Assembly: GCA_018623155.1 (NCBI GenBank) | Contig: JAAZVZ010000008.1 | Coordinates: 1 to 64,000 of the forward strand | Source of the DNA: Glaciecola sp. | Lineage (GTDB): Bacteria > Pseudomonadota > Gammaproteobacteria > Enterobacterales > Alteromonadaceae | Direction of reading: 5' to 3' | Length of the DNA stretch: 64,000 nucleotides | In this document: in pieces, positions 14,910 to 38,691 of the stretch | Numbering within the stretch: the stretch's first letter is position 1 | Layout of the letters: the number at the start of each line of letters is the position of its first letter | Position numbers and translations under genes: made by a program | Notes under the pieces: model-generated | The model's database searches: none | The model's input: only the letters and a program-made list of their open reading frames with translations | Told to the model about the DNA's origin: nothing

Positions 14910-16331
14910 ATGTCGACTTGCAGTCAAACCATCGCTAAGAGTGGCATCAAATTTGGCACATCAGGCGCTCGTGGTTTAGTCACTGATTTTACGCCCCTCG
15001 CGTGTCATGCGTTTACCTTTGCGTTCATCAAGTCAATGCAAGAAGATTATGTATTTAATCGCGTCCTAGTCGGAATTGATAACCGACCAAGTTCTCCCAA
15101 TATAGCAAGTTATTGTATCAGCGCTCTCAAGGTATTAGGCATTGATGCGATATATTGTGGTGTTTTGCCCACGCCTGCTCTAGCGTTGGCTTCCTTACAA
15201 GAAAGTATACCTTGTATCATGGTCACTGGGTCACATATCCCATTCGATCGCAATGGCCTGAAGTTTTACACCCCGGATGGGGAAATCACTAAAGCCCATG
15301 AACAAGCGATTTTGGCATGTACAAGCGATGTTGCGGGCTGCTCAGAAATAATCTTGCCAGAAGTAGAAACTTCTGCCACTGAGCGATATATTCAGCGTGC
15401 TACCCAGTTATTTGCCTCAGATATATTTGCCTCAAAACGCATCGGAATTTACGAACACTCCAGTGCTGGCCGTGAACTTTATGCACCTATATTTGAAGCA
15501 TTGGGAGCTGAAGTAATCGCATTGGAACGTTCAGACGAATTTGTGCCAATCGATACAGAAGCAGTAAGTGATGCTGATAAGGCAAAAGCAAAAGCATGGT
15601 CAGACACTCATCAGTTCGATATGATATTTTCGACCGATGGCGATGGTGACCGTCCACTCATCAGTGACGAAAACGGTGAATGGTTACGCGGTGATATAGT
15701 CGGCTTATTAACCGCTAAAGCATTACAAATTGAAGCCTTAGCAGTGCCTGTTAGTTGTAATACAGCTATTGAAGCCAGTCTCGCTTTTAGCCATGTCTCT
15801 CGTACCAAAATTGGCTCGCCCTATGTCATCGAGGCGTTTGCTTCCTTAGACTTTGACTACCGTTCAGTTGCAGGCTTTGAAGCAAATGGTGGTTTTCTGT
15901 TAGGTTCAGATGTGCACTTTAATCAGCACACTATTCACGCATTACCAACTAGAGATGCATTACTGCCAGGGCTTTTATTATTAGCGGATGCTTGTGCCCA
16001 ACAAACAACCATAAGTCAATTGGTTGCAATGTTGCCCCAGCGATTTACAGACAGTGACCGAATCAAAGATTTTGCTACCGAACGTTCACAAGAACTCATT
16101 AAACAACTCAGTGCCCACCCAAATCAACTGATCGCAGCCATGGGCATCCCTGGAGAAGTTGAGCAAATAAATACGATAGACGGGTTGCGCATCACTCTCA
16201 ACACAGGTGACATTATCCACCTTCGTCCAAGTGGCAATGCACCAGAGTTGCGTTGTTATGCTGAGAGCGGCAGTCAAGCAGTTGCTAAGCAACTCGTTGC
16301 AACAGCGCTTATGACGGTAAAACTTTTGTAA
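14910..16331 (+). CDS. phosphohexomutase (phosphomannomutase/phosphoglucomutase family)
   Basis: 'KFGTSGARGLV', 'VTGSHIPFDRNGLKF', 'STDGDGDRPLI', 'LRPSGNAPELRCYAES' alpha-D-phosphohexomutase motifs. Confidence 0.9.
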   Translation: MSTCSQTIAKSGIKFGTSGARGLVTDFTPLACHAFTFAFIKSMQEDYVFNRVLVGIDNRPSSPNIASYCISALKVLGIDAIYCGVLPTPALALASLQESIPCIMVTGSHIPFDRNGLKFYTPDGEITKAHEQAILACTSDVAGCSEIILPEVETSATERYIQRATQLFASDIFASKRIGIYEHSSAGRELYAPIFEALGAEVIALERSDEFVPIDTEAVSDADKAKAKAWSDTHQFDMIFSTDGDGDRPLISDENGEWLRGDIVGLLTAKALQIEALAVPVSCNTAIEASLAFSHVSRTKIGSPYVIEAFASLDFDYRSVAGFEANGGFLLGSDVHFNQHTIHALPTRDALLPGLLLLADACAQQTTISQLVAMLPQRFTDSDRIKDFATERSQELIKQLSAHPNQLIAAMGIPGEVEQINTIDGLRITLNTGDIIHLRPSGNAPELRCYAESGSQAVAKQLVATALMTVKLL

Positions 16332-16407: not shown

Positions 16408-19400
16408 TTGTGTAATGTAGATAAGTCTGTGAGAGTTGGGATTGTGTTAGATACTCGTGCCTATGGTGGCATTGAGTCTCATATCTATGGCGTTGCTTCC
16501 GCACTTAATAAAGTGCAAGACGTTCCATTAGAAATATGTTTTATTCGCCTAAAACATTATGGCGAACATATCCTTACGTCTAAATTACAGACTAAGAACA
16601 TACGTACTTATACCATTAATAATGGCTTTCTCGATTTCTTTAAATTCATTCAAGAAAATACGTTCCATGTCTTACATTCGCACGGTTATAAAGCAAACTT
16701 ATGGTGCAGACTCACTTCGATCATTACCCAATCTAAGCATATTGCGACCTACCACTCAGGTGATCAGGGCACTGGAAAACTGTATTGTTATGATTTTATT
16801 GACCGCTTATCTTCTGGATTAAGTCACCAAAACATCGCAGTCAGCGAGCCAATTGCAGAATCCTTATACAGCCGTGCAAACGTGATGTTTAACGCATTAG
16901 ACTGCACTGACATTACGTTGAGTTGGGGGAATCACATTGGCTATGTTGGCCGATTCAGTTCTGAAAAAGCGCCAGGACGCTTCGTTGAAATTGCACGTGC
17001 CTTGATGGATCAATCCTTTGTTATGGTTGGAGATGGCCCCTTACTTAATGATATCAAGAAATATGCTCCTAACCATATTACCTTAACTGGACATTGCCAC
17101 AATATGGAGGAGCAGTGGAAACAATTGGATCTATTGGTATTACCCTCCCACCGAGAAGGCATGCCAATGGTCTGCTTAGAAGCAATGGCTCGAGGCATTC
17201 CCGTACTCACTCACCAACTTGGCAGCTTAGATAGACTCATCGTTCATGAACACAATGGTTTCTTGTTACCTCAATATTCCAAAGCGGATTACATTAAAAT
17301 CATTGAAGATTGGCTGGCTCTTTCTTCTGAAGCCCAAAAGCGCATTCGCAACAATGCTCGCCTAACCATACTGAATCACTTTGGCATGGGGCAATACATT
17401 GATAAGTTGGTGCGCCTTTATGTTTCGAGTTTACCTCTCGTAGAATTAAGTCATACCAAACATGCATCGTTCAACAATTCTCAGTCCAGAATACCCGTTC
17501 TCTTTGTTCATTATGCAAAACATGAATGGATCCGTGGCAGTGAACGATGTTTAATTGATCTGATCAAAAATATCGATGCTTCACGATTTGAACCGATCGT
17601 TTGGTGTGATACCAAACTCTTGGAAGCTACATTTACCTCACAACACATTACCGTTTATCGAGACCGGTTTACCATACTAGGCGACTGGGAAGCGCCTCGC
17701 TTTGCCATCAATAACACACGCTATTTTTGCAAACGTGGCAGAGAATTGATTAAGCTGCATCAAATACAACTTATTCATTGTAACAGTGCTGCACCGGCCC
17801 AATGGATGGTGTCAGTTGCAAACCAAACACGCACTCCACTCGTCACTCAACTACATGCTCGATATGTGTTTAGTGAAAGGCTCAGATGTCGTATAACGAG
17901 TTCCGATCACATAGTGGGTGTAAGTCAACCGATCATAAAGCAATGTCAAGGTGATAAGGGTCAAGAACCCCATTATCATGTAGTTGCCAATGGCATCGAT
18001 ACCAATAGACTCTTGGCACAACCCACCTACAATCTACGCATGGCATACCAGCTTAGTAAAAATCACTTTGTCATGGTAAGCATTGGCTCACTCATTCATC
18101 GTAAAGGCATGGATTTGGTGATAAAAGCGTGTCATAAAATGCATCAATCAGGTATTGAAACCGCTTTATTCATCATCGGTGATGGGCCTGAAAAAGCCCA
18201 CTTAGAGAAGCTCATTGATGACCTAAATATGCAGCAGCATATTTTTCTCTTAGGTGAGCAAAAGCATGCTTTTGGCATGCTCAAAGAAGGGGTCGATGTC
18301 TTTATCTCCGGTGCGAGAGAAGAAGTGTTTGGTTTGGTTTTTGCCGAAGCCGGCTTAGCTAAACTCCCATGCATCGCACCTGATGTTGGTGGGATCAGTT
18401 CTGTTATTGAACACAACCTGACCGGTAAACTGTGCCTTCCTGAGTCGGATATTGGGCTTTATGAGGCATGCAAAACTCTCTTTACCGATCGCAAAGCCGC
18501 CAGAGAAATGGGCAAACAAGGCTACCACCGAGTCCTTCAAAATTTTACCATTTCTCAAAATGTTGAACGCATGAGTGGCATATATGAAGAAGCAATATTA
18601 CGAGGAAGAAAACAGCTATCATCATGGCAAAAGGTCAAAAGTATTGGCCAAATGACCCTAGGTTATTGCCGACAAAAATGGTTTGCGAAGACGCAAAGAA
18701 AAGCCATATTAATCATTGATACAATTGAATTTAATGGCGGTTCCAAAATTGCCACAAAACGCTTTTTAGAGACACTTTCTCCGGACATCGATGTTTATAT
18801 CTTAACGATTGATGCAGATTCATGGCAATGCAGCAATACGCGCATCATCTGCCTTAAACAAGCCCCCTTCTTAAAAGATGCTGAGAGTGGCTATAAATAC
18901 TTACTAAAACATGGCTTTTATGCCTTACAACTTTTATTTGCTCTGTTTAGACACTCTCATATCAAAACGGTGTTGGGCTGTTCTTTACCTAGTAATGATA
19001 TGGCAGTGTCCGTCTGCAAATTTGTTTGTCCAGTGCAATGGGTACAATTTATTCATGGTCCAGTCTATGCCAGTCGCTTAAATGGGAAATTACTGCTACA
19101 AACCGATGCTCTATTTTATTTAGATTCTGCGCGGGAATCGATCGAATCAGCACTTGCTAAATGTGACACGAACTTACGCAAAATATCAGATGTAAAACCG
19201 TGCAAAACGTTTGTGAACGGGTTATCCGAATATGCGTTTAGCCCACCGCTAAAGCACTCACATATAAAAGTGCTATGGGCGGCATCAAATCTGCGTTGGA
19301 AGGGCTTAGATACCTTTCTTCATGCGTTACAACAATTCAGCGATACAGAACGACCAGAATGCAGTATCTGCTTTATTCGTGCAAAAGAGCCTAATATTCC

Positions 19401-19791
19401 AACCTCTGAGGTTAATATACCACTCCCACATGTGACTTGGCTTGAGGCTCCCGATAATTTGTCAGAGATACGCCTAGCGCATTCCATTTTTGTTTCCACT
19501 AGTCAAAAAGAACCTTTTGGACTGTCCATATTGGAAGCCCTTGCTGCAGGTCTATGCGTATTAATTCCTGCTGATAATGCATACTGGGATAAAAAGTTAA
19601 CACAAGGCGAACATTGCTGGAAATATGAGCCGAATGATCCATATGATTTGCACAAGCAACTTCACCTACTACTCAAACAATCAGACCGAATAGAATTACT
19701 TGGCAAAAATGGATTTATGTTTGCAAAACAGTACGCTGCTCAAGACAGTTATGCCGAAATAAAATCCCATATTGAGAGGCAGTTCATATGA
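16408..19791 (+). CDS. three-domain GT4-type glycosyltransferase (1127 aa)
   Basis: three consecutive GT-B units, each with an E-x7-E-like motif: 'HREGMPMVCLEAMARGIPV', 'REEVFGLVFAEAGLAKLPC', 'QKEPFGLSILEALAAGLCV'; TTG start (or GTG 16429). Confidence 0.88.
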   Translation: MCNVDKSVRVGIVLDTRAYGGIESHIYGVASALNKVQDVPLEICFIRLKHYGEHILTSKLQTKNIRTYTINNGFLDFFKFIQENTFHVLHSHGYKANLWCRLTSIITQSKHIATYHSGDQGTGKLYCYDFIDRLSSGLSHQNIAVSEPIAESLYSRANVMFNALDCTDITLSWGNHIGYVGRFSSEKAPGRFVEIARALMDQSFVMVGDGPLLNDIKKYAPNHITLTGHCHNMEEQWKQLDLLVLPSHREGMPMVCLEAMARGIPVLTHQLGSLDRLIVHEHNGFLLPQYSKADYIKIIEDWLALSSEAQKRIRNNARLTILNHFGMGQYIDKLVRLYVSSLPLVELSHTKHASFNNSQSRIPVLFVHYAKHEWIRGSERCLIDLIKNIDASRFEPIVWCDTKLLEATFTSQHITVYRDRFTILGDWEAPRFAINNTRYFCKRGRELIKLHQIQLIHCNSAAPAQWMVSVANQTRTPLVTQLHARYVFSERLRCRITSSDHIVGVSQPIIKQCQGDKGQEPHYHVVANGIDTNRLLAQPTYNLRMAYQLSKNHFVMVSIGSLIHRKGMDLVIKACHKMHQSGIETALFIIGDGPEKAHLEKLIDDLNMQQHIFLLGEQKHAFGMLKEGVDVFISGAREEVFGLVFAEAGLAKLPCIAPDVGGISSVIEHNLTGKLCLPESDIGLYEACKTLFTDRKAAREMGKQGYHRVLQNFTISQNVERMSGIYEEAILRGRKQLSSWQKVKSIGQMTLGYCRQKWFAKTQRKAILIIDTIEFNGGSKIATKRFLETLSPDIDVYILTIDADSWQCSNTRIICLKQAPFLKDAESGYKYLLKHGFYALQLLFALFRHSHIKTVLGCSLPSNDMAVSVCKFVCPVQWVQFIHGPVYASRLNGKLLLQTDALFYLDSARESIESALAKCDTNLRKISDVKPCKTFVNGLSEYAFSPPLKHSHIKVLWAASNLRWKGLDTFLHALQQFSDTERPECSICFIRAKEPNIPTSEVNIPLPHVTWLEAPDNLSEIRLAHSIFVSTSQKEPFGLSILEALAAGLCVLIPADNAYWDKKLTQGEHCWKYEPNDPYDLHKQLHLLLKQSDRIELLGKNGFMFAKQYAAQDSYAEIKSHIERQFI

Positions 19792-21200
19792 AGTTTGCCA
19801 ATATTCCTCACACGATTTTATACGGTTTTAGTTTGGCTCTGATGAAAGGTCTGTCTCTGATCATGTTGCCATTTGTTGCTCATACTTTATCACCTGATGA
19901 ATTTGGACGTGTAGAGGTTCTCAGCAGTATTACGATTATTGCGAGTGTGATTGTTGGTTTTGGTTTAGAAGACAGTCTTTATCGATTCGCCGGACTCGCT
20001 CGAAATGTTCAACGGCAACGCGTAATGGCGAGTGCTATATTCACACTGGCAACTTTAATGAGCGTCATCTCATTGCTGTTTTTGTGGTTATTTGTGGCAC
20101 AAATCCAAAAGCATATTCCTGGGAACATTCCGCTTGAAGCCATAATACTCGGTTTGTGTATCGTTTCATTCGAAGCCATGATTGCCGTCCCTCTTGGATG
20201 GTTACGGATGAATGATCAAGCAAGTGAGTTTTGTGTTGCCACCATTGGACGAGCGTTTATTCAAGTTGTCCTGACACTTTGGTTTATCCAAGTCTCTCCC
20301 ACCGTAACCAGTATATTCGCAGCTGGATTCATAGCCGTCATAATACAACTTGCCTATCTTATATTTTGGCAGTGTCAAACCACAAAATGGATATGGTTAC
20401 CAAAAACATTTAAAAAGATTTTAACCTACTCATTTCCTTTGCTAGGCACTGGATTAGTTGGATTTGCCTTAATGGGAGCCGATAGGTTATTCGTTGCGCA
20501 CTATACATCTTTAGAGCAGGTTGCTTTATATGGTGTTGCAGCCAAATTTGCCATTGGTGTTGTGTTGTTCCTGCAACCCTACACAATGTGGTGGGTACCC
20601 AAACGGTTCCAAACTTTGGTGCAACCAAACGGTGCGCATAGTGTTGCTCAATTCACGTCTTTTGGCCTACTTTATCTAGCGATTGCAACATTTATGATTA
20701 TGACCACCAGTGAGTTTTTGATCACACTACTGATGCCTGTTTCTTACCTAGATGCGATGAATTGTCTCTTAATCCTCGCATGTGCCATGTTTGCAAAAGA
20801 GGCCGCCGAACTTCTCAATATTGGTGCTTTCACTGGTCGCAATACGTATGAGCAATTTTTTATCAACTGTATTATCTCTTTACTCGGAATCGGGCTTTTT
20901 TGGAGCTTAGTGCCCCTACATGGAGCATATGGCGCTGCAATTTCACTGTGTATTGCCATGTCAGCTAAAGCGATTGGTCTATTTTTGTTGAGTCAAAAAC
21001 GCCTACCTTTACCGTTTTCATATGGGTTACTCTTCGGTGCACCAACCGCGATTGTAATATTGGGTGTCGCTTTACACCTATACCTGTCTCCAGTGTCTCA
21101 GTTCATCATAAGTGTTGGCTCATTATTCGTAATAGGGCTTGTGACTATGTGGTTTCGCAGCACTGACGCATTTTCCAAATACCAATTAGGAAAAATGTGA
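19788..21200 (+). CDS. Wzx-like polysaccharide flippase / oligosaccharide translocase
   Basis: multi-TM protein, 'GLSLIMLPFVAHTLSPDEFGRVEVLSSITIIASVIVGFGLEDSLYR'; SypK-like position. Confidence 0.85.
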   Translation: MKFANIPHTILYGFSLALMKGLSLIMLPFVAHTLSPDEFGRVEVLSSITIIASVIVGFGLEDSLYRFAGLARNVQRQRVMASAIFTLATLMSVISLLFLWLFVAQIQKHIPGNIPLEAIILGLCIVSFEAMIAVPLGWLRMNDQASEFCVATIGRAFIQVVLTLWFIQVSPTVTSIFAAGFIAVIIQLAYLIFWQCQTTKWIWLPKTFKKILTYSFPLLGTGLVGFALMGADRLFVAHYTSLEQVALYGVAAKFAIGVVLFLQPYTMWWVPKRFQTLVQPNGAHSVAQFTSFGLLYLAIATFMIMTTSEFLITLLMPVSYLDAMNCLLILACAMFAKEAAELLNIGAFTGRNTYEQFFINCIISLLGIGLFWSLVPLHGAYGAAISLCIAMSAKAIGLFLLSQKRLPLPFSYGLLFGAPTAIVILGVALHLYLSPVSQFIISVGSLFVIGLVTMWFRSTDAFSKYQLGKM

Positions 21201-22585
21201 ACACTATGCTTAACCTATTCACTAACCACTATCTCATTTTCATATGGATCATCCTGCTCACCTTTGCTTGGTCTGTGATGCCACACCCTTTGCTTGTGAT
21301 TGGGATCAGTATCTTACCGATTGCGATATTAATGATGTTGCACTACCCATTTTTGATGGTGTTGTTGTTTGTCATTTTTTCGTTTTTTCGCATCCACGAA
21401 GTGATTCCACAACTCTATAATTTCAAAATCCCCTTATTGCTCTCTTTAGCCAGCTTTGCAACTCTTGGTTGGAATGTATTTTACAAACAGAGATTTACAT
21501 TATGGTGGCGGCCAGAACTGACTGGTTTAACAGCATTTTTTATCGCTGTCAGTATCGGGGTTGTCATGGCAAGTAATTTGCCAATCGCCATTCAGTATTA
21601 CTTAAATATTTTTATCAAAATCGCCATTATGTGTTTTGCCATTACATGGTTAACCACTCGCGAGACGGATTTTGCCTTTGCAGCAAAAGCGATCGTCTTT
21701 GCTGGGTGCATTGTCGGGATCAAAGCCCTTTATAACAAAGCCAATGGCATAGGGCTCGTTGAAGAAACGCGCGTCACAATTGGTCGCGTGTTCGGATCAG
21801 TACTCGGTGATCCAAATGATCTGTCATTAGTGCTCATGTTTCCTTCTGCTTTTGCTGTGGGTTTTATCCTGACAAAAGGACTGAGCTATCGCCTCAAAAT
21901 ATATGGCGTCATGAGTATCTGCATCTTGTTTTCAGCCATCCTGGCAACGCAAAGTCGAGGTGGGTTGTTAGGTATTTTGGCGGTCTTTGGTATTTTTGCT
22001 TACCGAAGAATCCAAAACAAACTGCTATTTTTGGGTGGTGGCGCTATCGCTGCCTTAATTTTATATCAAGTCGCTGGTATTTCAGGGCGTGTCTCTGGTG
22101 GTGCGGCTGAGGAAGGTATCGATGCTTCAGCCATGGGAAGGATTTATGCTTGGGAAGCCGCCATTGGCATGGCTAACGATAACCCGTTTACGGGAGTTGG
22201 CATTGATAATTTCTACTCGAATTACTTTTTTTATTCACCCCATTGGGATGGCGTAAATCACGCCGTTCACTCAACTTGGTTTGGCGTATTGGCAGAGACT
22301 GGGTATGTGGGACTTATTATCTTCGTCACTGTCATTGTGATGCTGGTTAAAACTAATTTACACACCCTACAGATTCTCGAATCTCATCCAAGTAAATTTT
22401 CCCCTGCGATTCATACCACAGCCGAAGCACTTTTGGCTGGTCTAGTGGGAACCCTTGCTGCCGGAACCTTTTTGACTTTTGGCTTTAGTTGGCCAATTTA
22501 TATCCTCGGGGCAATGACTATCAGTCTAGCGCATTGGACTGAGCAACAATTGTTACCTCACACTGTACAACAAAAGGATTATTAA
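21197..22585 (+). CDS. O-antigen ligase/polymerase (Wzy/WaaL-like)
   Basis: multi-TM, 'GRVFGSVLGDPNDLSLVLMF', 'TQSRGGLLGI', 'NPFTGVGIDNFYSNYFFYS...HAVHSTWFGVLAETGYVGLI'; SypL-like position. Confidence 0.85.
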   Translation: MNTMLNLFTNHYLIFIWIILLTFAWSVMPHPLLVIGISILPIAILMMLHYPFLMVLLFVIFSFFRIHEVIPQLYNFKIPLLLSLASFATLGWNVFYKQRFTLWWRPELTGLTAFFIAVSIGVVMASNLPIAIQYYLNIFIKIAIMCFAITWLTTRETDFAFAAKAIVFAGCIVGIKALYNKANGIGLVEETRVTIGRVFGSVLGDPNDLSLVLMFPSAFAVGFILTKGLSYRLKIYGVMSICILFSAILATQSRGGLLGILAVFGIFAYRRIQNKLLFLGGGAIAALILYQVAGISGRVSGGAAEEGIDASAMGRIYAWEAAIGMANDNPFTGVGIDNFYSNYFFYSPHWDGVNHAVHSTWFGVLAETGYVGLIIFVTVIVMLVKTNLHTLQILESHPSKFSPAIHTTAEALLAGLVGTLAAGTFLTFGFSWPIYILGAMTISLAHWTEQQLLPHTVQQKDY

Positions 22586-22587
22586 TC

Positions 22588-24531
22588 ATGCATCTTATTC
22601 GTTTGCTATCTCTAATCATTGCTGCAAGCTATAGCCTAAATATTAGTGCGACAACGGACCCCTCTTCTTGGCTATGGGTGGATTCATCATTAGATCCAAA
22701 TGTATCGACCACCCAAAATCATCAAGATCACTTTACCCGTATGGGCACCCCTTTGCGCCTATCCAATATCAATGACCAACTAGATGAATTTCTATTAGAT
22801 GGGTTTTATGCATTAGTGCCTGAAGGTCAACGTGTTGATCCCACGTTACTCGAAAATACGTTCAACAACATCGGAGTGAAAGATGACTTTGAAGGGACCG
22901 CTACGGTCAAAGTGGCTTTTTTAAACGAAGGAGCAGGATACAAAAACTCTCTTGGGTACTTTATTTATGAATCCAATAACCCACCTACATCATCCACCAT
23001 TGCGGATGTTGAACATGTATTGATCTTTCCTAACAGCTCTAGAGCCCGTTCTGGTGGTGAGTTAGTGCAAGGCGATCAAGTCGATTTAAAAATCACACTC
23101 CCTGCTGGATACAGTATCGGTTTTTTCATTGCCTCTAACAATTGGAACGGATGGTATGGTGGACAAAAAAACAATTTTCAGTTCGGACAACCCTTTTATA
23201 CTTTACCAGCATTAAACCCAAACGTTGGCTTAGGCAACAAGTATCATGTTTTGTTCAGAGATACTTTATCGGGTAGCGACGACATCAATGATATTGGCTT
23301 TTTTGCCTATGGATTTGAAGATATTAGAACCGATATGGGCGATAAAGATTTTAATGATCTTATTTTTAATGTTGAAGTCACCCCTTTAGCAGCCATTGCA
23401 GGGTTAGAAGATGTCATTAATGTGAAATCAGTCAAAGATACTGAACACAAAAAAGTCGGTAAAGTTGCGTTTGAAGATAACTGGCCCATGCAAGGGGATT
23501 ATGACTTTAATGATGCGGTTATTGCCTATGACGCAATAAAAGTGATTACCACTAAAGAAATTGAAAGCAACAATCAAATCACGCAAGAAGATGTATTAAA
23601 ATCTCTTACGATTGACTACAGTATTGAAGCGATTGGCGCAATTTTTCGCAATGGAATAGCTCTGTCCTTACCCAACGTTAAACTTGAAAACATTCAAACA
23701 TTAACCTTGCTGAAGACCGATAGTGCAGGACGTGAAGTCGCTCAATATCGATATGCAAACGGAGAATTTAACCTCAATGATGTTGCAATCAACGGCTTCA
23801 GTAATTACCCATACCCTCTTGCTCTAGAGACACAATCTGACCGTTTAGTCATTACATTATCCGAAAATCTCTTTGAAGAATTATCACATTATCAAGCTAT
23901 TAACCTAGCTGAATCTACACGCTGTATGTATCGAACAAGTATAGATAATGGTGTCTCTTGTCCAGCAGGCACCACAACCAACACCTGGCAGCTTGCTATT
24001 GAGTTTAAACATTCCGATGAGCAACAAGACGATTGGCTAAACAGTGCCAATGCTTTGAATGAAACCAACTATGATCACTTTATGTTTGCCAGCGAAAAAG
24101 GTAACCCTTCATATGAAATCTCTCACTTTCGTTTCGAGCGATATCAAGAAAGTTTTCCATGGTTTAATCAATGGTTAACGGGTAATCCATCATATAACCA
24201 TTTAACCGGACCGGGGCGATGCCTTGAAATTCATCTTTCTGAATTTTCTGGGACGGATTATTTTGAAGCGGAAGGGTCATATCGTGACGGACAGCTATTT
24301 GCAACACCGCTGTCTTATCAAGTTGACGCTAGCTTAGTGCGGCCATTTAACGTCACTGAAAAAGCGTTGCCATGGGTATTAGATTTACCTAGTAATTGGC
24401 ATCATCCGTTGGAGTCACAAGATATTGCAAAAGCATATCCAGATTTTATCAACTGGCTCAATGCACCTGAACAATATACTGAGTGGTATAAGCAAAATAT
24501 CAACTCTCAATTTATCTTCAATGCAGAATAA
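22588..24531 (+). CDS. secreted LruC-domain / DUF4114-type protein
   Basis: signal peptide; 'DMGDKDFNDLIFNVEVTP' and 'MQGDYDFNDAVIAYD' motifs typical of DUF4114/LruC families. Confidence 0.8.
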   Translation: MHLIRLLSLIIAASYSLNISATTDPSSWLWVDSSLDPNVSTTQNHQDHFTRMGTPLRLSNINDQLDEFLLDGFYALVPEGQRVDPTLLENTFNNIGVKDDFEGTATVKVAFLNEGAGYKNSLGYFIYESNNPPTSSTIADVEHVLIFPNSSRARSGGELVQGDQVDLKITLPAGYSIGFFIASNNWNGWYGGQKNNFQFGQPFYTLPALNPNVGLGNKYHVLFRDTLSGSDDINDIGFFAYGFEDIRTDMGDKDFNDLIFNVEVTPLAAIAGLEDVINVKSVKDTEHKKVGKVAFEDNWPMQGDYDFNDAVIAYDAIKVITTKEIESNNQITQEDVLKSLTIDYSIEAIGAIFRNGIALSLPNVKLENIQTLTLLKTDSAGREVAQYRYANGEFNLNDVAINGFSNYPYPLALETQSDRLVITLSENLFEELSHYQAINLAESTRCMYRTSIDNGVSCPAGTTTNTWQLAIEFKHSDEQQDDWLNSANALNETNYDHFMFASEKGNPSYEISHFRFERYQESFPWFNQWLTGNPSYNHLTGPGRCLEIHLSEFSGTDYFEAEGSYRDGQLFATPLSYQVDASLVRPFNVTEKALPWVLDLPSNWHHPLESQDIAKAYPDFINWLNAPEQYTEWYKQNINSQFIFNAE

Positions 24532-24542
24532 GGACTTTTCTC

Positions 24543-24965
24543 ATGCAAAAATCAATTTTCATTTCCTCTTGCTTATTTCTATTCGCGTGTGGCGGTTCAA
24601 ATAATTCTGGAATAGAACAAAATGTTTCAGCCCCTCCTGCACAGAGTCAACCAGCATTACAATCTACAACGGATACCATTGCTGCAGATGGACACACGTT
24701 TGCCATGTTCAAATCCCATGACATATCGTTCACCAATTCCAGTTCAAATTTAGTCACTGTGCAACTCATGGATGAAAACCAAACCATCTTAATTCAGACT
24801 TCCTTAACGCAAGGACAGAGTAAATCGTTAGCCATTCAGATCCCTGAAGGCAACGAGCAAACATACGTTTTATGGAGCGGTAGAAATAGTGCAGATAATT
24901 CTTTTGCAAGTGAAAAACATACTGCGGATATATCTCAAGTGATTGTATTTAATGGATTTAACTAA
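24543..24965 (+). CDS. small putative lipoprotein
   Basis: lipobox 'LFLFACGGSNNSG'; 140 aa; no recognised family. Confidence 0.65.
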   Translation: MQKSIFISSCLFLFACGGSNNSGIEQNVSAPPAQSQPALQSTTDTIAADGHTFAMFKSHDISFTNSSSNLVTVQLMDENQTILIQTSLTQGQSKSLAIQIPEGNEQTYVLWSGRNSADNSFASEKHTADISQVIVFNGFN

Positions 24966-24966
24966 T

Positions 24967-25956
24967 ATGAAAAATACTTTTGATGATACTTATGGAGAAG
25001 TAAAAGTACTTTTGCTCAGCGACTGCTCGCAATCGTTACAAAATATTGAGGCCACGTTAAAACAACTCAACTATCATGTCAGTGCATTTACCAATTGTGA
25101 GCAAGGCATAGCAGCACTAAGAGCAATGCCCGATATGTATTCACTCATCATTATTGACCTGCAAGAAAAAAATGAAAAGAGCATCGAAATGGTCAAGATG
25201 ATCAGAATGATGGAGGATCTACTTGAAGAAATATGGCGTCCTATTTTATTGACCGGTTCCGTCGAAAATAATAAGGATGACTTCATTAAAGGTCTTCAAG
25301 TGGGTGCAGATGCCTTCTTTTTAGCTCCTATGGATAAGGACCTAATTCAAGCTATGGTGAATGCCATTGTTAGAATGTTTTCGATGCGCAAAAAACAACT
25401 CAATAAATATCTTACCTTACAGCATGAATCGCTGACTGACGTATTAACAGGCCTTCCCAATCGCAGGCATTTTACCGAGATTCTCAAGAAAGCAATGACG
25501 GTCTCTCAGCGTCATCAGCGACCTTTGTGCGTGGCATACTTTGATTTGGATTTTTTTAAAAATATTAATGATACCTTTGGTCATGAGGCGGGAGATATGG
25601 TGCTCAAAGAAGTGTGCACAACGCTGAAATCCAACCTGCGTACTGAAGATTCGATTGGGCGTATGGGAGGCGAAGAGTTCTGCATCTGTATGCCGGATAC
25701 ATCTATGAAAGAAGCCAAAATACCCATCGAACGATACCGTATTGCAATTGAATCATTGCAGCTAAACTATGATGACAAGCCCATTCATGTTACTGCAAGT
25801 TTTGGGTTGACTCAGTTTAAGCCCTTTAAACATGATATCGCCTCATTATTAGCTCACTCAGATCACGCACTTTACGAATCCAAAACCAATGGTCGTAATC
25901 GTGTGACCGCCTTATCGTATGACTTTTTCCAGGGACAATCATGCAACAAGATGTAA
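24967..25956 (+). CDS. diguanylate cyclase: degenerate receiver + GGDEF domain
   Basis: 'LTDVLTGLPNRRHF...GRMGGEEFCICMPD' with RTED I-site 5 aa upstream of GGEEF; N-terminal REC-like domain with 'LIIIDLQEK'. Confidence 0.9.
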   Translation: MKNTFDDTYGEVKVLLLSDCSQSLQNIEATLKQLNYHVSAFTNCEQGIAALRAMPDMYSLIIIDLQEKNEKSIEMVKMIRMMEDLLEEIWRPILLTGSVENNKDDFIKGLQVGADAFFLAPMDKDLIQAMVNAIVRMFSMRKKQLNKYLTLQHESLTDVLTGLPNRRHFTEILKKAMTVSQRHQRPLCVAYFDLDFFKNINDTFGHEAGDMVLKEVCTTLKSNLRTEDSIGRMGGEEFCICMPDTSMKEAKIPIERYRIAIESLQLNYDDKPIHVTASFGLTQFKPFKHDIASLLAHSDHALYESKTNGRNRVTALSYDFFQGQSCNKM

Positions 25957-27059
25957 TTGTTTTTGGTGAAGACTGGGGTAAGTTACCTTCCAGTACGCAA
26001 CACTTGATTAAACATATCGCCAAAGATCGACGTGTGGTTTGGGTCAACTCTATTGGTTTGCGCAAACCCAGGGTAACTTGGCATGACCTGACTCGTCTCA
26101 TTCATAAGATCATTGCCAAGTGCCGCGCCAAATCTACACAACAAGATACTGTCATCCCAGATAATATGACAATTATCAACCCATTGACGATACCGGTTCC
26201 CAAGTGGTCTTTGACCAGAAAAATTTGTCAGATTATTCTCAAAAAACAAATCGTTCCTATCGTTGAACGTCTTCAATTGAATTCACCGATCTTATGGTTA
26301 TCACTGCCTACGGCAGTTGATATGATTGGACATCTAAATGAAGAAAAGGTGGTATATTATTGTGGTGACGATTTTTCTGGGCTATCTGGCGTTGAGCATG
26401 ATACGGTTTCTCAACGAGAAGAGGAACTATTGCATAAAGCTCACGTTATTTTCGTTTCCAGTCAAATACTAGCGGATAAATTAGCAAGCCCCAAAACCTT
26501 CATGATCCCTCATGGAGTCGATTATCAACTATTTTCAAACCCAACCGTTGCTTCTGAATTACTCCCTCAAGGCAAACCCATTGCAGGCTTTTATGGCAGT
26601 ATATCGGCGTGGCTAGACTTATCATTATTGCATGAAGTGATTGCCAAAATGCCAACATGGCATTTCGTTTTTGTTGGAAAAGTTGTCGTAGATGTGAGCG
26701 CGTTATCCCAATTCCCGAACGTCTTTTTTTATCCTGAAGTCGCACATAAGGAGTTACCAAGGTTTTCGCAACATTGGGACGTATCGATATTACCGTTTGT
26801 CGACAATGCCCAAATTAGAGCGTGTAACCCCCTGAAATTACGTGAATATTTGGCCGCAGGCACACCCATTATCAGCACAGATTTTCCCGCATTGGCTCCT
26901 TACCGAGAGGTGATTAATATCATTCACTCTCCACAAGAAATGTGCGAAGCATTAGATAAAACTTTACATACAGCGCCAATAAAGACACAACAAAAACTGG
27001 TGGAACGTGAAGACTGGTCGATAAAAGCTCTAGATGTAATGGAGATTTTGGCACAGTGA
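25941..27059 (+). CDS. glycosyltransferase (GT-B fold, SypN-like position)
   Basis: 'IPHGVDYQLFS', 'IAGFYGSISAWLDLSLLHEV', 'RACNPLKLREYLAAGTPIISTDFPAL'. Confidence 0.85.
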   Translation: MQQDVIVFGEDWGKLPSSTQHLIKHIAKDRRVVWVNSIGLRKPRVTWHDLTRLIHKIIAKCRAKSTQQDTVIPDNMTIINPLTIPVPKWSLTRKICQIILKKQIVPIVERLQLNSPILWLSLPTAVDMIGHLNEEKVVYYCGDDFSGLSGVEHDTVSQREEELLHKAHVIFVSSQILADKLASPKTFMIPHGVDYQLFSNPTVASELLPQGKPIAGFYGSISAWLDLSLLHEVIAKMPTWHFVFVGKVVVDVSALSQFPNVFFYPEVAHKELPRFSQHWDVSILPFVDNAQIRACNPLKLREYLAAGTPIISTDFPALAPYREVINIIHSPQEMCEALDKTLHTAPIKTQQKLVEREDWSIKALDVMEILAQ

Positions 27060-28510
27060 GTAATATTAGCTATCAATTATATACGCTGCTAGATGCTGGG
27101 TGGAGACACCGATATATTATCATTTTACCGATTTTATTATTTCCTGTGATCGGTTTTTCTATCGGTGTCTTCACAGCCAAAACATACACTGCACATACAA
27201 GCATGTTGATTCAAGAAACGTCCAAACTAAATCCTTTCTTGGAGGATTTTGCCGTATCGGCGATGCTCAAAGAGCGCTTATCAGCTTTACAAACCTTATT
27301 GCATAGTCGGCACATATTGCGTCAGGTGGCCATCGATCGTCAACTCATAACAGAAGAGACGAACAAAGTAGACCAAGAGAGGGTAATCAATCAACTGTCC
27401 AGTTCATTGAGAATGGAAATGTCCGGTAAAGATTTGATTCGAATTGAGTATTCAAGCTCTGATCCTAAAACTATCGTGCCGATACTGGATACCGTTTCAA
27501 ATCATTTTATTGAACAACTGTTAGCACCAGAGCGTTCTTCAATTAAGGATTCTTCAACGTTTCTATCAGAATTATTAACCAATCGCCAATTCGAACTTGA
27601 GGCGGCAGAAAATGCACTTGCCGCTTTCAAAAATCAGCATGCAGAACAGCTTCCAGAACTGCATTTGGGTAATGTGAGTCGTTTGGCACAGCTTAAGCAA
27701 ACTCTGTTTGAAAAAGAAGCTGAACTCGCCGGTGCTATCAAAACGCTCGGCACAATTGACCAACAATTATCAAAAACAAATCCTGTTGTTGCCAATCTAG
27801 AAGAGCGGATCATCCAACTTCAGAGCCAGCTTGCCCTACTAAAAGCTCGATATACCGATAATCATAGTCAGGTTCAGGGTGCCATGCGAGTATTAAATCG
27901 ACTCCAAGACGAACGCCTTGCCGCCTTGCAAAATCAGGATAATCAAATCGATGTCGATCAGCTATGGAGCATTGCCAGTCAATCTAAACGCAGTTCTGAT
28001 TCCCAACAACCTTTGTTGTTGATCGCGCAATTAGATCACCTACAACTTGCCCGAGGTAAAGTGAATGCGCTGACAGAAGAAACCAACAATCTTAGAACAA
28101 TGATCAACAAGCAGGCCCAAAGAACCTCTCAACTCGGTAAATTAGAAAAGCAACTCAATGAATTGCAGCGTGATTTAAAAGTGAAACGCAACCTTTATGA
28201 AGATTTGTTAGAACGTTATGAGCTCGCGCGTGTCACCGGTGCCTTGGGTTTTTTTGAAAAAGAGAAACGCATCAAAGTCATTGACTTACCCTTTACTCCC
28301 AGTGTACCCAACAATCCATCCGCCATCTTGTTTTTCATTGCAGGTATCGTGGGAGGGATAGTATTTGGTATTGGCTGTGCTATTTTTGCACACATAAATG
28401 ACCATACTATACGATACAAAAAACAGTTAGAGACAAAGTTGGGGCAAGAGGTATTAACTCGCATTCCACAGGTTGCTTCACAAGATTTGCGTGGAGGATT
28501 GCTTGAATAA
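27056..28510 (+). CDS. Wzz/GumC-type polysaccharide chain-length determinant (SypO-like position)
   Basis: N-terminal Wzz TM region, long coiled coil 'RQFELEAAENALAAFKNQHAEQLP', C-terminal TM; no fused kinase. Confidence 0.88.
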   Translation: MSNISYQLYTLLDAGWRHRYIIILPILLFPVIGFSIGVFTAKTYTAHTSMLIQETSKLNPFLEDFAVSAMLKERLSALQTLLHSRHILRQVAIDRQLITEETNKVDQERVINQLSSSLRMEMSGKDLIRIEYSSSDPKTIVPILDTVSNHFIEQLLAPERSSIKDSSTFLSELLTNRQFELEAAENALAAFKNQHAEQLPELHLGNVSRLAQLKQTLFEKEAELAGAIKTLGTIDQQLSKTNPVVANLEERIIQLQSQLALLKARYTDNHSQVQGAMRVLNRLQDERLAALQNQDNQIDVDQLWSIASQSKRSSDSQQPLLLIAQLDHLQLARGKVNALTEETNNLRTMINKQAQRTSQLGKLEKQLNELQRDLKVKRNLYEDLLERYELARVTGALGFFEKEKRIKVIDLPFTPSVPNNPSAILFFIAGIVGGIVFGIGCAIFAHINDHTIRYKKQLETKLGQEVLTRIPQVASQDLRGGLLE

Positions 28511-28526
28511 ATATTGTTGTTTCGCC

Positions 28527-30890
28527 ATGTTTACGGTTATTACCATATTACTATTCGGTGCTTATGCTTATGCTGAAGGCAAACATGTCTGGTATGTGAG
28601 TCAACATGACCTAACCAATACAACTTTAGAATTCAAAGGGATTAATCACACCGAGGAGCCTCAAATTGTCGTTGTTCGAATTGACGACAAAGACTCCCCT
28701 AACTTCGCTCAGCGCGTCAATTATGAACGCACTGTCGTACCAGGTAAATTTGTATTTCATCTCAGTACAAATGAGTTATACACCAGCAGTAAACGCAAAG
28801 TGAAGCCGACTGATATCCAAAGAATTTATATCTTCGCAGGAAAATCTGATGCCAATATTGAATTTCAGGCGACCACGCTTAAAGAGAGAACAATCTTACC
28901 TGAACATCTTGTTGCATGGGATTTTGGTGACCACAATAGTAAAATATGGCCCGGTTTTGAACGCATAACTCCAGATCACCCAGCCCTGACTGGGACACTC
29001 ACCTCGCTACAGCGAGATCGACACAATGGCATCAACGACGGACTCATTAGTGACGGGATCAAAGGAATCAATGCCATAACCCTACCAATCAAGGCAGGCC
29101 GCTATCGTCTTCATTTGTGGCTTGAAGATATGGGAGACTGGGAATATGCTCCACATTTTTTAGAACGGACTATCACCTTTAATCACCGTCGCCTTGAACA
29201 TTTTTACGACACCCCTGAGTCTTGGCAGAATCACCGCTATTTGAGACAACCCATCTATTCCAACAAACCTGATGTGTTTGATGATATCGTCATGCCGTTT
29301 TATGGACATCGCTCTTATACAATCGAAACGGACAGCTCTGATAATGTATTGACACTCAATGGTGATCGCCTTTCTGCCCAATATCTTTCTGCATTACTGA
29401 TCGAACCATTGGGTGATGACAATACAATCCGTCATGTGACTGACCAACAAGCGTTATGGTGGAGACAAAATTGGCCCATTTCAGAGGCACTTCACATCCC
29501 AATGCCAACTCAGGAGCTTTCATCAAATATCACCATTGTGATGGCAAAAGATGAGCAACAACACTTAGCCTTTACGCAGGACTTTGCTACGGATTTTAGT
29601 ATATTTAATGTGATCGCAAAGCGCGAAAAGCAAAACTCAAGTTCACAACCTCCTATCCCAATTATTACCCAAAGAAATGTGCAATGGCAGCTTAGACGAA
29701 AATCTCTACAAGGGAATTTACTGCATTTTTCCGCACAACGACTCAGCAACGAATCGACATCTGAGAATCCAACACTTCCCGGCATTAGTACCCTTTCACT
29801 GTTCACCAAACCGAACACCCCAGCTGGAACATACCACTATGAAGTCGTTGTAAAGACACATGGGCAACGTCGCTCAGTGCCTTTAGAGGTCCATGTTTTA
29901 GACATGACACTGCCAAAATTAACGACCAGTATTGGCGTGTATCTTGAACCGCCTTATCACCGTTCATGGTTTACATCTCTTGCCCACAGTCGTGCCTATC
30001 AATGTGATCTAGACAGACTAAAACAGTTTGGTTTAAATGCACTTTCTCCTGGATTACCGACTCCCTACAATGCATCAAGCACCAAAGCATTTATAGAACG
30101 AATAAGAGAGGTTATGGCCGTGGGGATGCACGCCACGATCCTTGCATACGCGCCCTATAAACGCTTAGTTGCACAAATGGGGATAACCAATGCCGTGGCG
30201 CAAATCAAAAAAGTTGATGCATTAGTACGTTCTGAATTTCCTGATATTACGTTGTACTGGTCTATCGCAGACGAACCAAGCAACGCTGCAAGCACACCCT
30301 TCACTGCCACCCATAATGAGTTAGAGAATGTCACTGCTGGGCATTTTAACGCGCCAGAAGATACCAAGTGGTTTCATTCGGTAGCCGCTAAATTCGTTAA
30401 CCCTTCAGTGCAGTTAAAGACAAAAGATTATCATGCGATGGCAAAAGAAGATTCAACAATATATTTATACAATATAGAACAGTACCGACATGCCGCGGGA
30501 TTAGCTACTTGGTACTGGCAAACCGACGGTTATTTGCAATGGCATGCCCGCATGCCAGGTGCTTACCCATTTTCACCTGTCGATGCTCGGGAAGATGACG
30601 TATTTTTCATCTATCCATCGGCAGAATTATGCTCTGCAACACCTGATATAGATTGGACTTTACTCGCTATCAGTCAAGGAATATCTGATCAGAGATGGTT
30701 GCAATGGTTAGTTACAACCGCTGAACACAACAAGAACGCCGATCAATTAGTGGCATCAATACAATCTATTATTCAGAAACAACAATCACCGCTCAATGTC
30801 GACATAGACACACTTAACCAGTGGCTTATCAAAATAAAACAATTAGCTCATACAATTCATTTGGAGGCATCGCATGGAAGCGACTCTTAG
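28527..30890 (+). CDS. secreted protein with DUF4091-like C-terminal domain (putative glycoside hydrolase-like)
   Basis: signal peptide 'MFTVITILLFGAYAYAEG'; 'PDITLYWSIADEPSNA', 'GLATWYWQTDGYLQWHARMPGAYPFSPVDAREDDVFFIYPSAEL' resembling the DUF4091 C-terminal signature. Confidence 0.6.
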   Translation: MFTVITILLFGAYAYAEGKHVWYVSQHDLTNTTLEFKGINHTEEPQIVVVRIDDKDSPNFAQRVNYERTVVPGKFVFHLSTNELYTSSKRKVKPTDIQRIYIFAGKSDANIEFQATTLKERTILPEHLVAWDFGDHNSKIWPGFERITPDHPALTGTLTSLQRDRHNGINDGLISDGIKGINAITLPIKAGRYRLHLWLEDMGDWEYAPHFLERTITFNHRRLEHFYDTPESWQNHRYLRQPIYSNKPDVFDDIVMPFYGHRSYTIETDSSDNVLTLNGDRLSAQYLSALLIEPLGDDNTIRHVTDQQALWWRQNWPISEALHIPMPTQELSSNITIVMAKDEQQHLAFTQDFATDFSIFNVIAKREKQNSSSQPPIPIITQRNVQWQLRRKSLQGNLLHFSAQRLSNESTSENPTLPGISTLSLFTKPNTPAGTYHYEVVVKTHGQRRSVPLEVHVLDMTLPKLTTSIGVYLEPPYHRSWFTSLAHSRAYQCDLDRLKQFGLNALSPGLPTPYNASSTKAFIERIREVMAVGMHATILAYAPYKRLVAQMGITNAVAQIKKVDALVRSEFPDITLYWSIADEPSNAASTPFTATHNELENVTAGHFNAPEDTKWFHSVAAKFVNPSVQLKTKDYHAMAKEDSTIYLYNIEQYRHAAGLATWYWQTDGYLQWHARMPGAYPFSPVDAREDDVFFIYPSAELCSATPDIDWTLLAISQGISDQRWLQWLVTTAEHNKNADQLVASIQSIIQKQQSPLNVDIDTLNQWLIKIKQLAHTIHLEASHGSDS

Positions 30891-31998
30891 CCTAACTGAA
30901 CACAAACAAACCAATCGACGATTGCGCATAGCGCATATTGTGCAACATTTACAACCTGGCGGTATCGAAACAATGGTTGTCAATATGGCAAACTCAATGA
31001 AAGGAACTGTCGCGTCAAGAGTGATCAGTTTGCAAGGCCAGTCAGAGGAGTTATTACAAAATTGGAAGCGTTTATCGTCTTTACAAACACCATGGATGGG
31101 CTTTGCTAAAGCAAAAGGCGTAACACCATCACTCGTTTTACAACTAAAAAATTATCTGCAAGAAAACAAAATAGAGGTTGTACACACCCATCATATTGGC
31201 CCACTTTTGTACGGGGGGATTGCTGCGAGAATGGCTGGATGTCGAGTCGTACATACCGAGCATGATGCATGGCATTTGGAGAGCTTTCGCAGAAGAACAT
31301 TACAACAAGCTATCCTTAGGTTAGTGAACCCTACCGTGATCGCAGATGCAAAATATGTTGCCAGTGCATTTGAAAAAAATACCCGAGTAAGAGTCGCTAA
31401 AATCATCCCTAATGGGGTGGATATGTCGCAATTTCGCAGCGGTAACAAGGGCTATGCTCGCACTCATTTAGGTTTGCGTCAAAATGTATTTTGGGTAGGT
31501 TCTGCTGGGCGTCTAGAGCCAGTAAAAGACCATAAAACATTGTTAGATGCACTGGTCACAGCGCCATCAGACGTTCACCTTGTCATTGCAGGTAATGGTT
31601 CTCAAGCTGAACCATTAAAAGACTACGCACAAAGACTTGGTATATCCGAACGAGTGGTGTTTCTTGGGCATATTGAAGAGATGAAAACATTTTATCAAGC
31701 GATTGATTGTTTTTGTTTACCTTCATTGAAAGAAGGTTATCCCATAGCAACACTTGAAGCTCAGGCCTGTTCTGTACCATGTATTGTCACGGATACTGGT
31801 GGAAGTACAGAAGCCTTATGTCCTTTAACGGGTATCGCCGTTCCCGTGCAAAGACCTGATTTACTGAGTAATGCCATCTCGCAGTTATATCATCATCCGG
31901 CCAAATGCGATCCTCGTGAGCACGTCTTTGAACACAATCATTTTGCACATACAATAAGCAAATACTTGGGCGTTTATTCACAAGGAGCAAACGAGTGA
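30874..31998 (+). CDS. GT4 family glycosyltransferase (SypP-like position)
   Basis: 'IVQHLQPGGIETMVVNMANSM', 'PNGVDMSQFRSG', 'PSLKEGYPIATLEAQACSVPCIVTDTGGSTEAL'. Confidence 0.9.
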   Translation: MEATLSLTEHKQTNRRLRIAHIVQHLQPGGIETMVVNMANSMKGTVASRVISLQGQSEELLQNWKRLSSLQTPWMGFAKAKGVTPSLVLQLKNYLQENKIEVVHTHHIGPLLYGGIAARMAGCRVVHTEHDAWHLESFRRRTLQQAILRLVNPTVIADAKYVASAFEKNTRVRVAKIIPNGVDMSQFRSGNKGYARTHLGLRQNVFWVGSAGRLEPVKDHKTLLDALVTAPSDVHLVIAGNGSQAEPLKDYAQRLGISERVVFLGHIEEMKTFYQAIDCFCLPSLKEGYPIATLEAQACSVPCIVTDTGGSTEALCPLTGIAVPVQRPDLLSNAISQLYHHPAKCDPREHVFEHNHFAHTISKYLGVYSQGANE

Positions 31999-33155
31999 CT
32001 TCAGCTCTCCTTGTCATCCATGGCTTAGCCATAATATTGATTTTATATCACCATATTGTTTATCCCTTACTACTGAATTGGTTAACTAGGGGTAAACCTC
32101 AAGATCAAGGCATTACCATTGATATGCCTGAAAATAATTTACCTGAAATCACTATTCTCATTCCTGCGCATAATGAAGCTCAATGGATTGCAGAGAAGGT
32201 CTTGAATCTTGCGACTCTCGATTATCCCCAAGATAAATTAACTATATTGATATTGTGTGATGGGTGTACTGACAACACAGTCGACATTGCCAAACAATAT
32301 ACAACCTATCCTGAGTGTCAAGGGTTGAACTTACACATAATAGATTTTCCCGAAAACCGTGGTAAAGTCAGCGTAATCAATGAGGGGATGAAGTTTGTCA
32401 AAACGGAATTGGTCGCCATGTCTGATGTGTCAGCGCTGATCTCAATTGATGCTTTAAAACTTTCAGCACAAAAGTTTTTGGACCCAGAAGTCGGCGTTGT
32501 GAATTCGCATTACCAGTTATATAACGCCCAAGACGGCGAGCAATCCTATTGGTTGTATCAATCGAAAATCAAACAACAAGAGTCCTTACTAGCTTCCACT
32601 TTAGGGGCTCATGGCGCTTTCTACATTTTCCGCAGTAAGCTCTTCACTGAATTAGAGCACGATACAATCAACGATGACTTTATTTTACCCATGCGGATTG
32701 TTGAACAAGGCTACAAAGTCAAGCAACTCAAAGATGTGCACGCTTTAGAATTAGAGGCCAGTTGCAATACCATGGATCAACAACGACGAAAACGTATATC
32801 CGCTGGGAATATACAACAAGTAATGCGCTTAAAATCATTACTGCGTCCAAAATATAAGCAGGTTGCATTTTTATTTGCTTCTGGCAAAGCACTTAGGGTC
32901 GCTATTCCGTTTCTGATGATCGTGACCTACCTATCTAATGCAATGTTATTGAGCAAACACTCTATTTTCGTGTATGAGTTTATATTGCAAAATCTATTCT
33001 ATCTTCTTCTGTTAATAGAAATTCGCTATGGATTTGCAAGCCATAATCGATATATAAAAATGGTCTCTTATATGTTTAGGGGGCACTTGAGTGGCTTAGT
33101 TGGCGCTCTGGATTATCTCATTCATAGACATCGTAAACCTTGGAAGAAAGTTTAA
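31995..33155 (+). CDS. GT2 family membrane glycosyltransferase (SypQ-like position)
   Basis: 'ITILIPAHNEAQWIAEKVLNLATLDYP...ILCDGCTDNTVDIA', 'QQRRKRISAGNIQQVMRLK' QxxRW-type region, C-terminal TM helices. Confidence 0.88.
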   Translation: MTSALLVIHGLAIILILYHHIVYPLLLNWLTRGKPQDQGITIDMPENNLPEITILIPAHNEAQWIAEKVLNLATLDYPQDKLTILILCDGCTDNTVDIAKQYTTYPECQGLNLHIIDFPENRGKVSVINEGMKFVKTELVAMSDVSALISIDALKLSAQKFLDPEVGVVNSHYQLYNAQDGEQSYWLYQSKIKQQESLLASTLGAHGAFYIFRSKLFTELEHDTINDDFILPMRIVEQGYKVKQLKDVHALELEASCNTMDQQRRKRISAGNIQQVMRLKSLLRPKYKQVAFLFASGKALRVAIPFLMIVTYLSNAMLLSKHSIFVYEFILQNLFYLLLLIEIRYGFASHNRYIKMVSYMFRGHLSGLVGALDYLIHRHRKPWKKV

Positions 33156-34696: not shown

Positions 34697-35398
34697 CTAC
34701 ACATCCATGCGCAATAATTTTGTTTCTCGTATCTCATTAATTAATGCAGACCTAAGCTTACTCATCCAATTTGGTAAACGAGTCATTTGTCGAATAAGCT
34801 CAGATTGTAAGGTCGGAGAATGCTTATCGTTGATGACTACACCGAGTATCGATGCGCCAACCTTATCGAGTTTATTGATACACTCTCGTACCATAACATC
34901 CGTTGTCACACCAGATAGTACCATCAAGATATTAGAATCCACTGCGGCTGCAATTCGTTGCGCTGGGATATTATGCTGATTGATTTGGCCGATCGGTGTG
35001 GTATCAAAAATAACAAAATCAAAATCATCAAGCCACTGCACTATCTGTTGTTCGAGTTTTCCAGGACATCTTAGCTGCAATAGTTTTGACTTGCTATTGG
35101 GTGCTTGTACACCTGTCATTACCAATTGATGCTGCTCATCTGTCAATAACATTGGTGGCATATCATGCTGCTGAAAATGAGGCAGACTGATGGAAGACGA
35201 AAAGAAGGGTTTATGGCTATTAAAATCCACCACTAATACGCTTTGCCCAGACAGTAGTATGCGCCTTGCAAGTGCAAGCACCATTGATGTGACGCCTTCA
35301 CCCGAAGTCGCTGATATCACTGCAATACTCCGTTTGTTTTCGGTTAACAACTTTGAATATACCGTGTCAATTTCGTTACTCAGAGTAATGTAAGACAT
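34697..35398 (-). CDS. CpsD/CapB/BY-kinase-like ATPase (SypD-like), degenerate Walker A
   Basis: 'ISATSGEGVTSMVLALARRILLSGQSVLVVDFNSHKPFF' aligns to SxxPGEGKST...lliDaDlRkP; start at ATG 35398 overlapping the upstream stop (TGATG). Confidence 0.75.
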   Translation of the reverse strand: MSYITLSNEIDTVYSKLLTENKRSIAVISATSGEGVTSMVLALARRILLSGQSVLVVDFNSHKPFFSSSISLPHFQQHDMPPMLLTDEQHQLVMTGVQAPNSKSKLLQLRCPGKLEQQIVQWLDDFDFVIFDTTPIGQINQHNIPAQRIAAAVDSNILMVLSGVTTDVMVRECINKLDKVGASILGVVINDKHSPTLQSELIRQMTRLPNWMSKLRSALINEIRETKLLRMDV

Positions 35399-38345: not shown

Positions 38346-38349
38346 TGGA

Positions 38350-38691
38350 CTAACTCGCTACCATCTCTGTTGGATCGCCTTCGTATAATTCAACGGTAAT
38401 GACCGTATCAATTCTTAAAAGCTTTATGAGTTCCAATGGTTGACTGTGTACATTTGACAAAACCACTTCAATAGAATGTTCTCTCATTTTTTTAAACAAG
38501 AAAACAATCACACCAATACCGGATGAATCAATGAAAGAGACATTTTTCATATCAATGGTAATGGTGGTAAAGTCTTGCTGGGCAGCGAGCTGAACAAATT
38601 CATTTCGAATTTGTTCTGTGCTTTCGGCATCAAGTTCACCTGATAGAGTAAACTGTAATTCTGTTCCTATATGTTCTTTTACGAAGTCCAT
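38350..38691 (-). CDS. STAS-domain anti-sigma-factor antagonist-like protein (SypA-like)
   Basis: 'ITIDMKNVSFIDSSGIGVIVFLFKKM' with DSSG phospho-acceptor motif (S56/S57). Confidence 0.92.
   Translation of the reverse strand: MDFVKEHIGTELQFTLSGELDAESTEQIRNEFVQLAAQQDFTTITIDMKNVSFIDSSGIGVIVFLFKKMREHSIEVVLSNVHSQPLELIKLLRIDTVITVELYEGDPTEMVAS

Follow-up and report, generated by a model that had tools for sequence, protein, structure and literature searches.

Gene cluster and reading frame

The window, a stretch of 64,000 nucleotides from a Glaciecola sp. draft assembly, contains on its plus strand a single unbroken open reading frame at positions 16408-19791, which encodes 1127 residues if read from TTG. 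Its stop codon overlaps the ATG of a Wzx gene at 19788, so that the frame lies directly upstream of the flippase gene, as a preliminary description of this DNA had stated. The frame comprises three glycosyltransferase modules and two linkers, listed below with the neighboring genes and with the evidence for each assignment. Residue numbers refer throughout to the 1127-residue frame with the TTG start.

14910-16331, plus strand: phosphomannomutase/phosphoglucomutase-family gene, directly upstream of the fusion (Pfam; also upstream in the genus members G004 and G008)
16429-17448, plus strand: module 1, SypH-like GT4 glycosyltransferase, residues 8-347, with K187, E250 and E258 (Pfam, tree, BLASTP, GTG start aligned with G004)
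17449-17481, plus strand: linker 1, residues 348-358, joining the SypH-like to the SypI-like module, within a poorly conserved stretch of about residues 341-362
17482-18627, plus strand: module 2, SypI-like GT4 glycosyltransferase, residues 359-740, with K566, E639 and E647 (Pfam, tree, BLASTP, orthologue alignment)
18628-18690, plus strand: linker 2, approximately residues 741-761, a basic and possibly amphipathic stretch located where separate SypI proteins have their C-terminal tail
18691-19788, plus strand: module 3, SypJ-like GT4 glycosyltransferase, residues 762-1127, with K965, E1035 and E1043 (tree, BLASTP, AlphaFold2, Foldseek)
19788-21200, plus strand: Wzx-type flippase in the SypK position (PF01943, synteny)
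21197-22585, plus strand: Wzy/O-antigen-ligase family protein in the SypL position (PF04932, synteny)
25941-27059, plus strand: SypN-like glycosyltransferase (50% identity to SypN of Aliivibrio fischeri; tree)
27056-28510, plus strand: SypO-like chain-length determinant of the Wzz/PCP type (TIGR03007 below the curated cut-off; synteny)
30874-33155, plus strand: SypP-like GT4 and SypQ-like GT2 glycosyltransferases (family matches, tree)
33152-38691, minus strand: SypE-like regulator, SypD-like kinase, SypC SLBB export protein, SypB OmpA protein and SypA STAS protein (Pfam; synteny with Vibrio loci)

By its gene content, the region is a syp/scv-type biofilm exopolysaccharide cluster. The order H-I-J-K-L is kept, with the three modules directly before Wzx and Wzy, and SypA to SypE form a reversed block; no SypM or SypR was seen in the window cluster. 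In the A. fischeri locus (L104) the order is SypC-, SypD- and SypE-like genes, a second regulator, SypH, SypI, SypJ, Wzx, Wzy, SypN and SypO, and the arrangement SypH-I-J-Wzx-Wzy is common to this locus and most of the others compared. Two phosphoglycosyltransferase genes were located on other contigs (G000 C34:558-1106 and C52:3321-3833; L159 and L160), and either product could serve as the starter of the repeat unit.

The TTG at 16408 is the longest start possible. The same tri-fusion is present in G004, a single-contig genome of the same genus, where it encodes 1120 residues with 71% identity and without internal stops. As the GTG start of G004 aligns with GTG 16429 of the window, the latter is probably the real start and the protein 1120 instead of 1127 residues long. 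The single open frame of the preliminary description thus stands, while its length probably has to be shortened. Since the window genome is a draft of 56 contigs, we considered that a sequencing or assembly error might have merged three frames. No positive sign of such an error was found, and the independent G004 genome carries the same continuous frame with linkers that align at equal length, which shows that the frame is genuine and leaves an artefact a negligible chance.

Catalytic residues and fold of the three modules

Three GT-B units had been proposed for this frame, at approximately 16408-17470, 17485-18610 and 18690-19788, and our boundaries, which delimit the modules at about residues 8-342, 362-735 and 764-1127, are close to these. 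Pfam families PF00534 (the Glycos_transf_1 C-terminal domain, E 4.7e-69) and PF13692 (E 2.2e-56) each matched three separate stretches of the protein. The E-x7-E-like motif ascribed to each unit turned out to be exact in all three, at E250/E258, E639/E647 and E1035/E1043, so that every module combines a Glycos_transf_1 domain with E-x7-E and a conserved basic residue, as is typical of GT4 members. For each module, 21-22 orthologues were aligned; the lysine and both glutamates proved invariant among them, and all three residues are kept in modules 1, 2 and 3 of the window. None of the modules has thus lost its catalytic residues, and each is likely to be active.

When module 3 was modelled separately with AlphaFold2, a two-domain GT-B fold was obtained with a pLDDT of 91.8. 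Foldseek matched this model to many GT4 structures, including MshA, BshA, PglA and PimA, mostly with TM scores of 0.6-0.76, bearing out the expectation of a GT4 fold; the N-terminal half of module 3 is the least similar to known families among the three modules. For the full-length protein, the alignment of single-domain rows placed all of them on module 1, and these rows were consequently left out of folding. The resulting model, built from six rows, reached a pLDDT of 66.6 and a pTM of 0.37, with weak linkers at residues 343-359 and 735-763. It is too uncertain to describe the arrangement of the modules, and the GT-B fold of modules 1 and 2 is seen solely in this low-confidence model.

Phylogenetic placement of the modules

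The preliminary description had suggested a fusion of three pathway glycosyltransferases and pointed to the three separate enzymes SypH, SypI and SypJ at the same place in A. fischeri, which we found as proteins of 338, 424 and 387 residues in L104. In a maximum-likelihood tree of 69 sequences that included this locus, module 1 grouped with the SypH orthologues (UFBoot/SH-aLRT 100/100), module 2 with those of SypI (99/97) and module 3 with those of SypJ (100/100), the A. fischeri protein falling into the respective group each time. SypN and SypP formed separate groups, and all five glycosyltransferase groups were monophyletic. The best A. fischeri matches were likewise one to one, with 36% identity to SypH, 39% to SypI and 33% to SypJ. 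Tree, best matches and synteny agree in showing one-to-one orthology, and the gene is best explained as an end-to-end fusion of adjacent ancestral sypH, sypI and sypJ.

All three modules are of the GT4/GT-B type, as would also be expected if a single glycosyltransferase gene unrelated to SypH, SypI and SypJ had recently been duplicated internally. However, the modules barely resemble one another (best BLASTP E 0.006), which excludes a recent duplication, and the similarity of each to its SypH, SypI or SypJ counterpart in other genera is much higher than that to its neighbors in the same polypeptide. Internal duplication was rejected on the basis of the tree and the BLAST comparison between modules, and we regard it as having practically no chance of being correct.

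Distribution of the fusion and probable order of events

To determine how widespread the fusion is, contigs of named genomes were scanned with the SypI-like family, and the best 80 of 133 relatives were taken for locus comparison. The tri-fusion was found only in the window genome and in G004 among the loci compared. Within these 80 loci, a SypI-SypJ bi-fusion was confined to Glaciecola sp. HTCC2999 (L079/G007; 779 residues) and a related MAG (L080/G009; 787 residues), and both genomes encode a separate SypH of 345 residues. The other 78 loci, some of which are cut by contig ends or are without one of the genes, showed no fusion among SypH, SypI and SypJ. About 40 further loci, partly from the same species and some with a SypH-like gene only, likewise revealed none outside the genus. 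Long open frames (values up to 1296) had hinted at more fusions, and direct ORF calling resolved them into separate genes in all fetched cases. Five other genus members had no relative at E <= 1e-20, and in G008 the contig ends within module 1. The tri-fusion is thus real and uncommon.

In HTCC2999, the SypH gene and the SypI-J gene overlap in different frames (ATGAATATGTCTAA). The simplest order of events starts from three separate genes, with SypI and SypJ fusing first, probably in an ancestor shared by the four genus members with a readable cluster, and SypH joining later, on the lineage of the window genome and G004. If the overlap in HTCC2999 is ancestral, joining SypH would have needed a frame change in addition to the loss of a stop codon. 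It is possible, yet less likely, that SypH instead split off later in the HTCC2999 lineage.

Selection on the modules and properties of the linkers

Comparison with G004 yielded dN/dS values of about 0.08-0.10 per module (0.18/1.81, 0.15/1.75 and 0.19/2.37 for modules 1, 2 and 3), which are approximate because dS is near saturation. These ratios show the signature of purifying selection on each module. In linker 1 the two proteins share 18% identity with a dN of 1.8, and both the length and the frame are kept; linker 2 is of equal length at 39% identity.

No in-frame start codon is present at window residues 336-380, the region of linker 1, and module 2 therefore lacks a start codon of its own close by. 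Linker 2 holds an ATG at residue 749, for which no shared ribosome-binding site was seen by eye. In the window, the hydrophobic moment of linker 2 is 0.36 and its net charge +3, values comparable with those of the basic tails of separate SypI proteins. A helix at residues 739-758 appears in the low-confidence full-length model. These properties suggest that linker 2 may retain a membrane-binding helix of the SypI tail.

Proposed function

The explanation that we favor overall, at a probability of about 0.78, is that the SypH-I-J fusion is a trifunctional enzyme which adds three consecutive sugars to a lipid carrier before export by Wzx. A phosphoglycosyltransferase encoded elsewhere would start the undecaprenyl-diphosphate-linked intermediate, and the fused protein, presumably at the cytoplasmic face of the inner membrane, would extend it by three consecutive sugars, each module transferring one of them, with retention, from a nucleotide-sugar donor. 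The SypN-, SypP- and SypQ-like enzymes would complete the repeat unit, which Wzx would flip and the Wzy-like protein polymerize. No donor or acceptor sugars were found in the literature searched, even for A. fischeri. In that species sypJ is needed for biofilm formation, while deletion of sypI merely delays it (PMC4263508), and perhaps not all three steps are essential. The fusion would at least fix a 1:1:1 stoichiometry of the three enzymes, and the fused protein may also be processed into separate enzymes. It is only tentatively that we extend this reading to an assembly-line enzyme of the Wzx/Wzy pathway, of stepwise origin in one genus, that hands the intermediate from site to site, and the odds are against it. 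If it were true, the module order could reveal in which order the sugars of SYP-type polysaccharides are added.

A strong alternative to an adaptive explanation, to which we give about an even chance, is that gene compaction produced the fusion neutrally, in that overlapping genes lost their stop and start signals and the enzymes work as if they were separate, without any benefit from channelling. This alternative opposes the adaptive reading and leaves the three-step enzymatic reading untouched. It is consistent with the overlap of the SypH and SypI-J genes in different frames in HTCC2999, with the barely conserved linkers and with the small genomes of the genus (2.1-3.3 Mb, as compared with mostly 3-6 Mb in the family). 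Against it, both species have retained the fused frame although synonymous change between them is near saturation.

Multi-module glycosyltransferases whose modules differ in activity are known in general, and the mild effect of the sypI deletion in A. fischeri could likewise be explained if one or two modules were catalytic and the rest acted as scaffold or regulator. We consider this unlikely, given that the lysine and both glutamates are retained in all modules and invariant across orthologues, and that all three have comparably low dN/dS values. Still less probable, at long odds, is a multi-linkage polymerase that would synthesize a complete homopolymer containing three types of linkage in place of three steps of a repeat unit. 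Three-module bacterial glycosyltransferases with one module per linkage are known, namely WbdA of Klebsiella O5 and E. coli O8, whose three modules are mannosyltransferases (PMC11231755), but here each module has its one-to-one orthologue in a single enzyme of the Wzx/Wzy-type syp clusters. Moreover, the tri-fusion adjoins genes of the Wzx, Wzy and Wzz families instead of the ABC transporter and WbdD-type terminator that accompany WbdA.

Comparison with known systems

SypH, SypI and SypJ are separate proteins in squid-colonizing Vibrio and their relatives. The A. fischeri proteins are orthologues of modules 1, 2 and 3 in the same order before Wzx and Wzy, but they are three polypeptides there, whereas the window genome and G004 encode a single polypeptide and no separate single-domain proteins. 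HTCC2999 and the related MAG, from the same genus and with the same cluster, join modules 2 and 3 via a similar linker and differ in having SypH as a gene of its own that overlaps the bi-fusion. This genus together with its relatives thus constitutes a natural series with three, two or one polypeptides for the same three reactions, which suggests that SypH, SypI and SypJ work one after another on a single intermediate. We did not find such consecutive action on the SYP polysaccharide settled in the literature searched. The series is a ready system for asking whether fusion of glycosyltransferases channels lipid-linked sugars or is a mere by-product of genome compaction.

The SypH-I-J tri-fusion appears to be unreported in the literature searched. 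The main text of a survey of scv (syp-like) loci states that scvF is fused to scvG in Agaribacterium haliotis and scvN to scvO in several genera, and equates scvE with sypG and scvN with sypQ (PMC8941931). By gene count and order, scvF and scvG would correspond to sypH and sypI. Neighboring syp/scv genes are joined in these loci as in ours, although two genes are involved there and three here. In the same main text, HTCC2999 is named only for its scvI protein, and neither a SypH-I-J nor a SypI-J fusion is ascribed to it (PMC8941931). WbdA resembles the tri-fusion in carrying three glycosyltransferase modules on one bacterial polypeptide, but is an ABC-transporter-dependent polymerase that uses one donor sugar, whereas the window modules derive from three different enzymes of a Wzx/Wzy cluster. 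A111/114R of chlorovirus PBCV-1, for which a role in adding three different sugars to the same glycan through its three glycosyltransferase domains has been proposed (PMC7826918), resembles the tri-fusion in layout, but is viral and concerns an N-glycan core. The initial expectation that a fusion of this kind would be unusual holds insofar as the tri-fusion is uncommon; it is nevertheless not the first of its sort, because trimodular bacterial glycosyltransferases such as WbdA and other fusions in syp loci, including a putative SypH-SypI fusion, have already been published.

Other genes in syp-type clusters

Several further genes of the region were recorded. An 805-residue protein without a Pfam match above the cut-off is encoded at window positions 28473-30890, between the SypO- and SypP-like genes, and has relatives with 27-34% identity in the syp-type clusters of HTCC2999 and Aeromonas. 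At positions 22588-24965, a 647-residue LruC/DUF4114-domain protein and a small putative lipoprotein are encoded inside the cluster and may be matrix proteins; proteins with an LruC domain are also found beside the syp-type clusters of Psychromonas and Motilimonas. A GGDEF-domain response regulator (24943-25956) is encoded within the polysaccharide operon, which suggests local control by cyclic-di-GMP. In the syp-type clusters of Aeromonas (L109, L114, L118, L124 and L130), Wzx and Wzy precede SypI and SypJ, and an adjacent SypH-like gene is usually absent.
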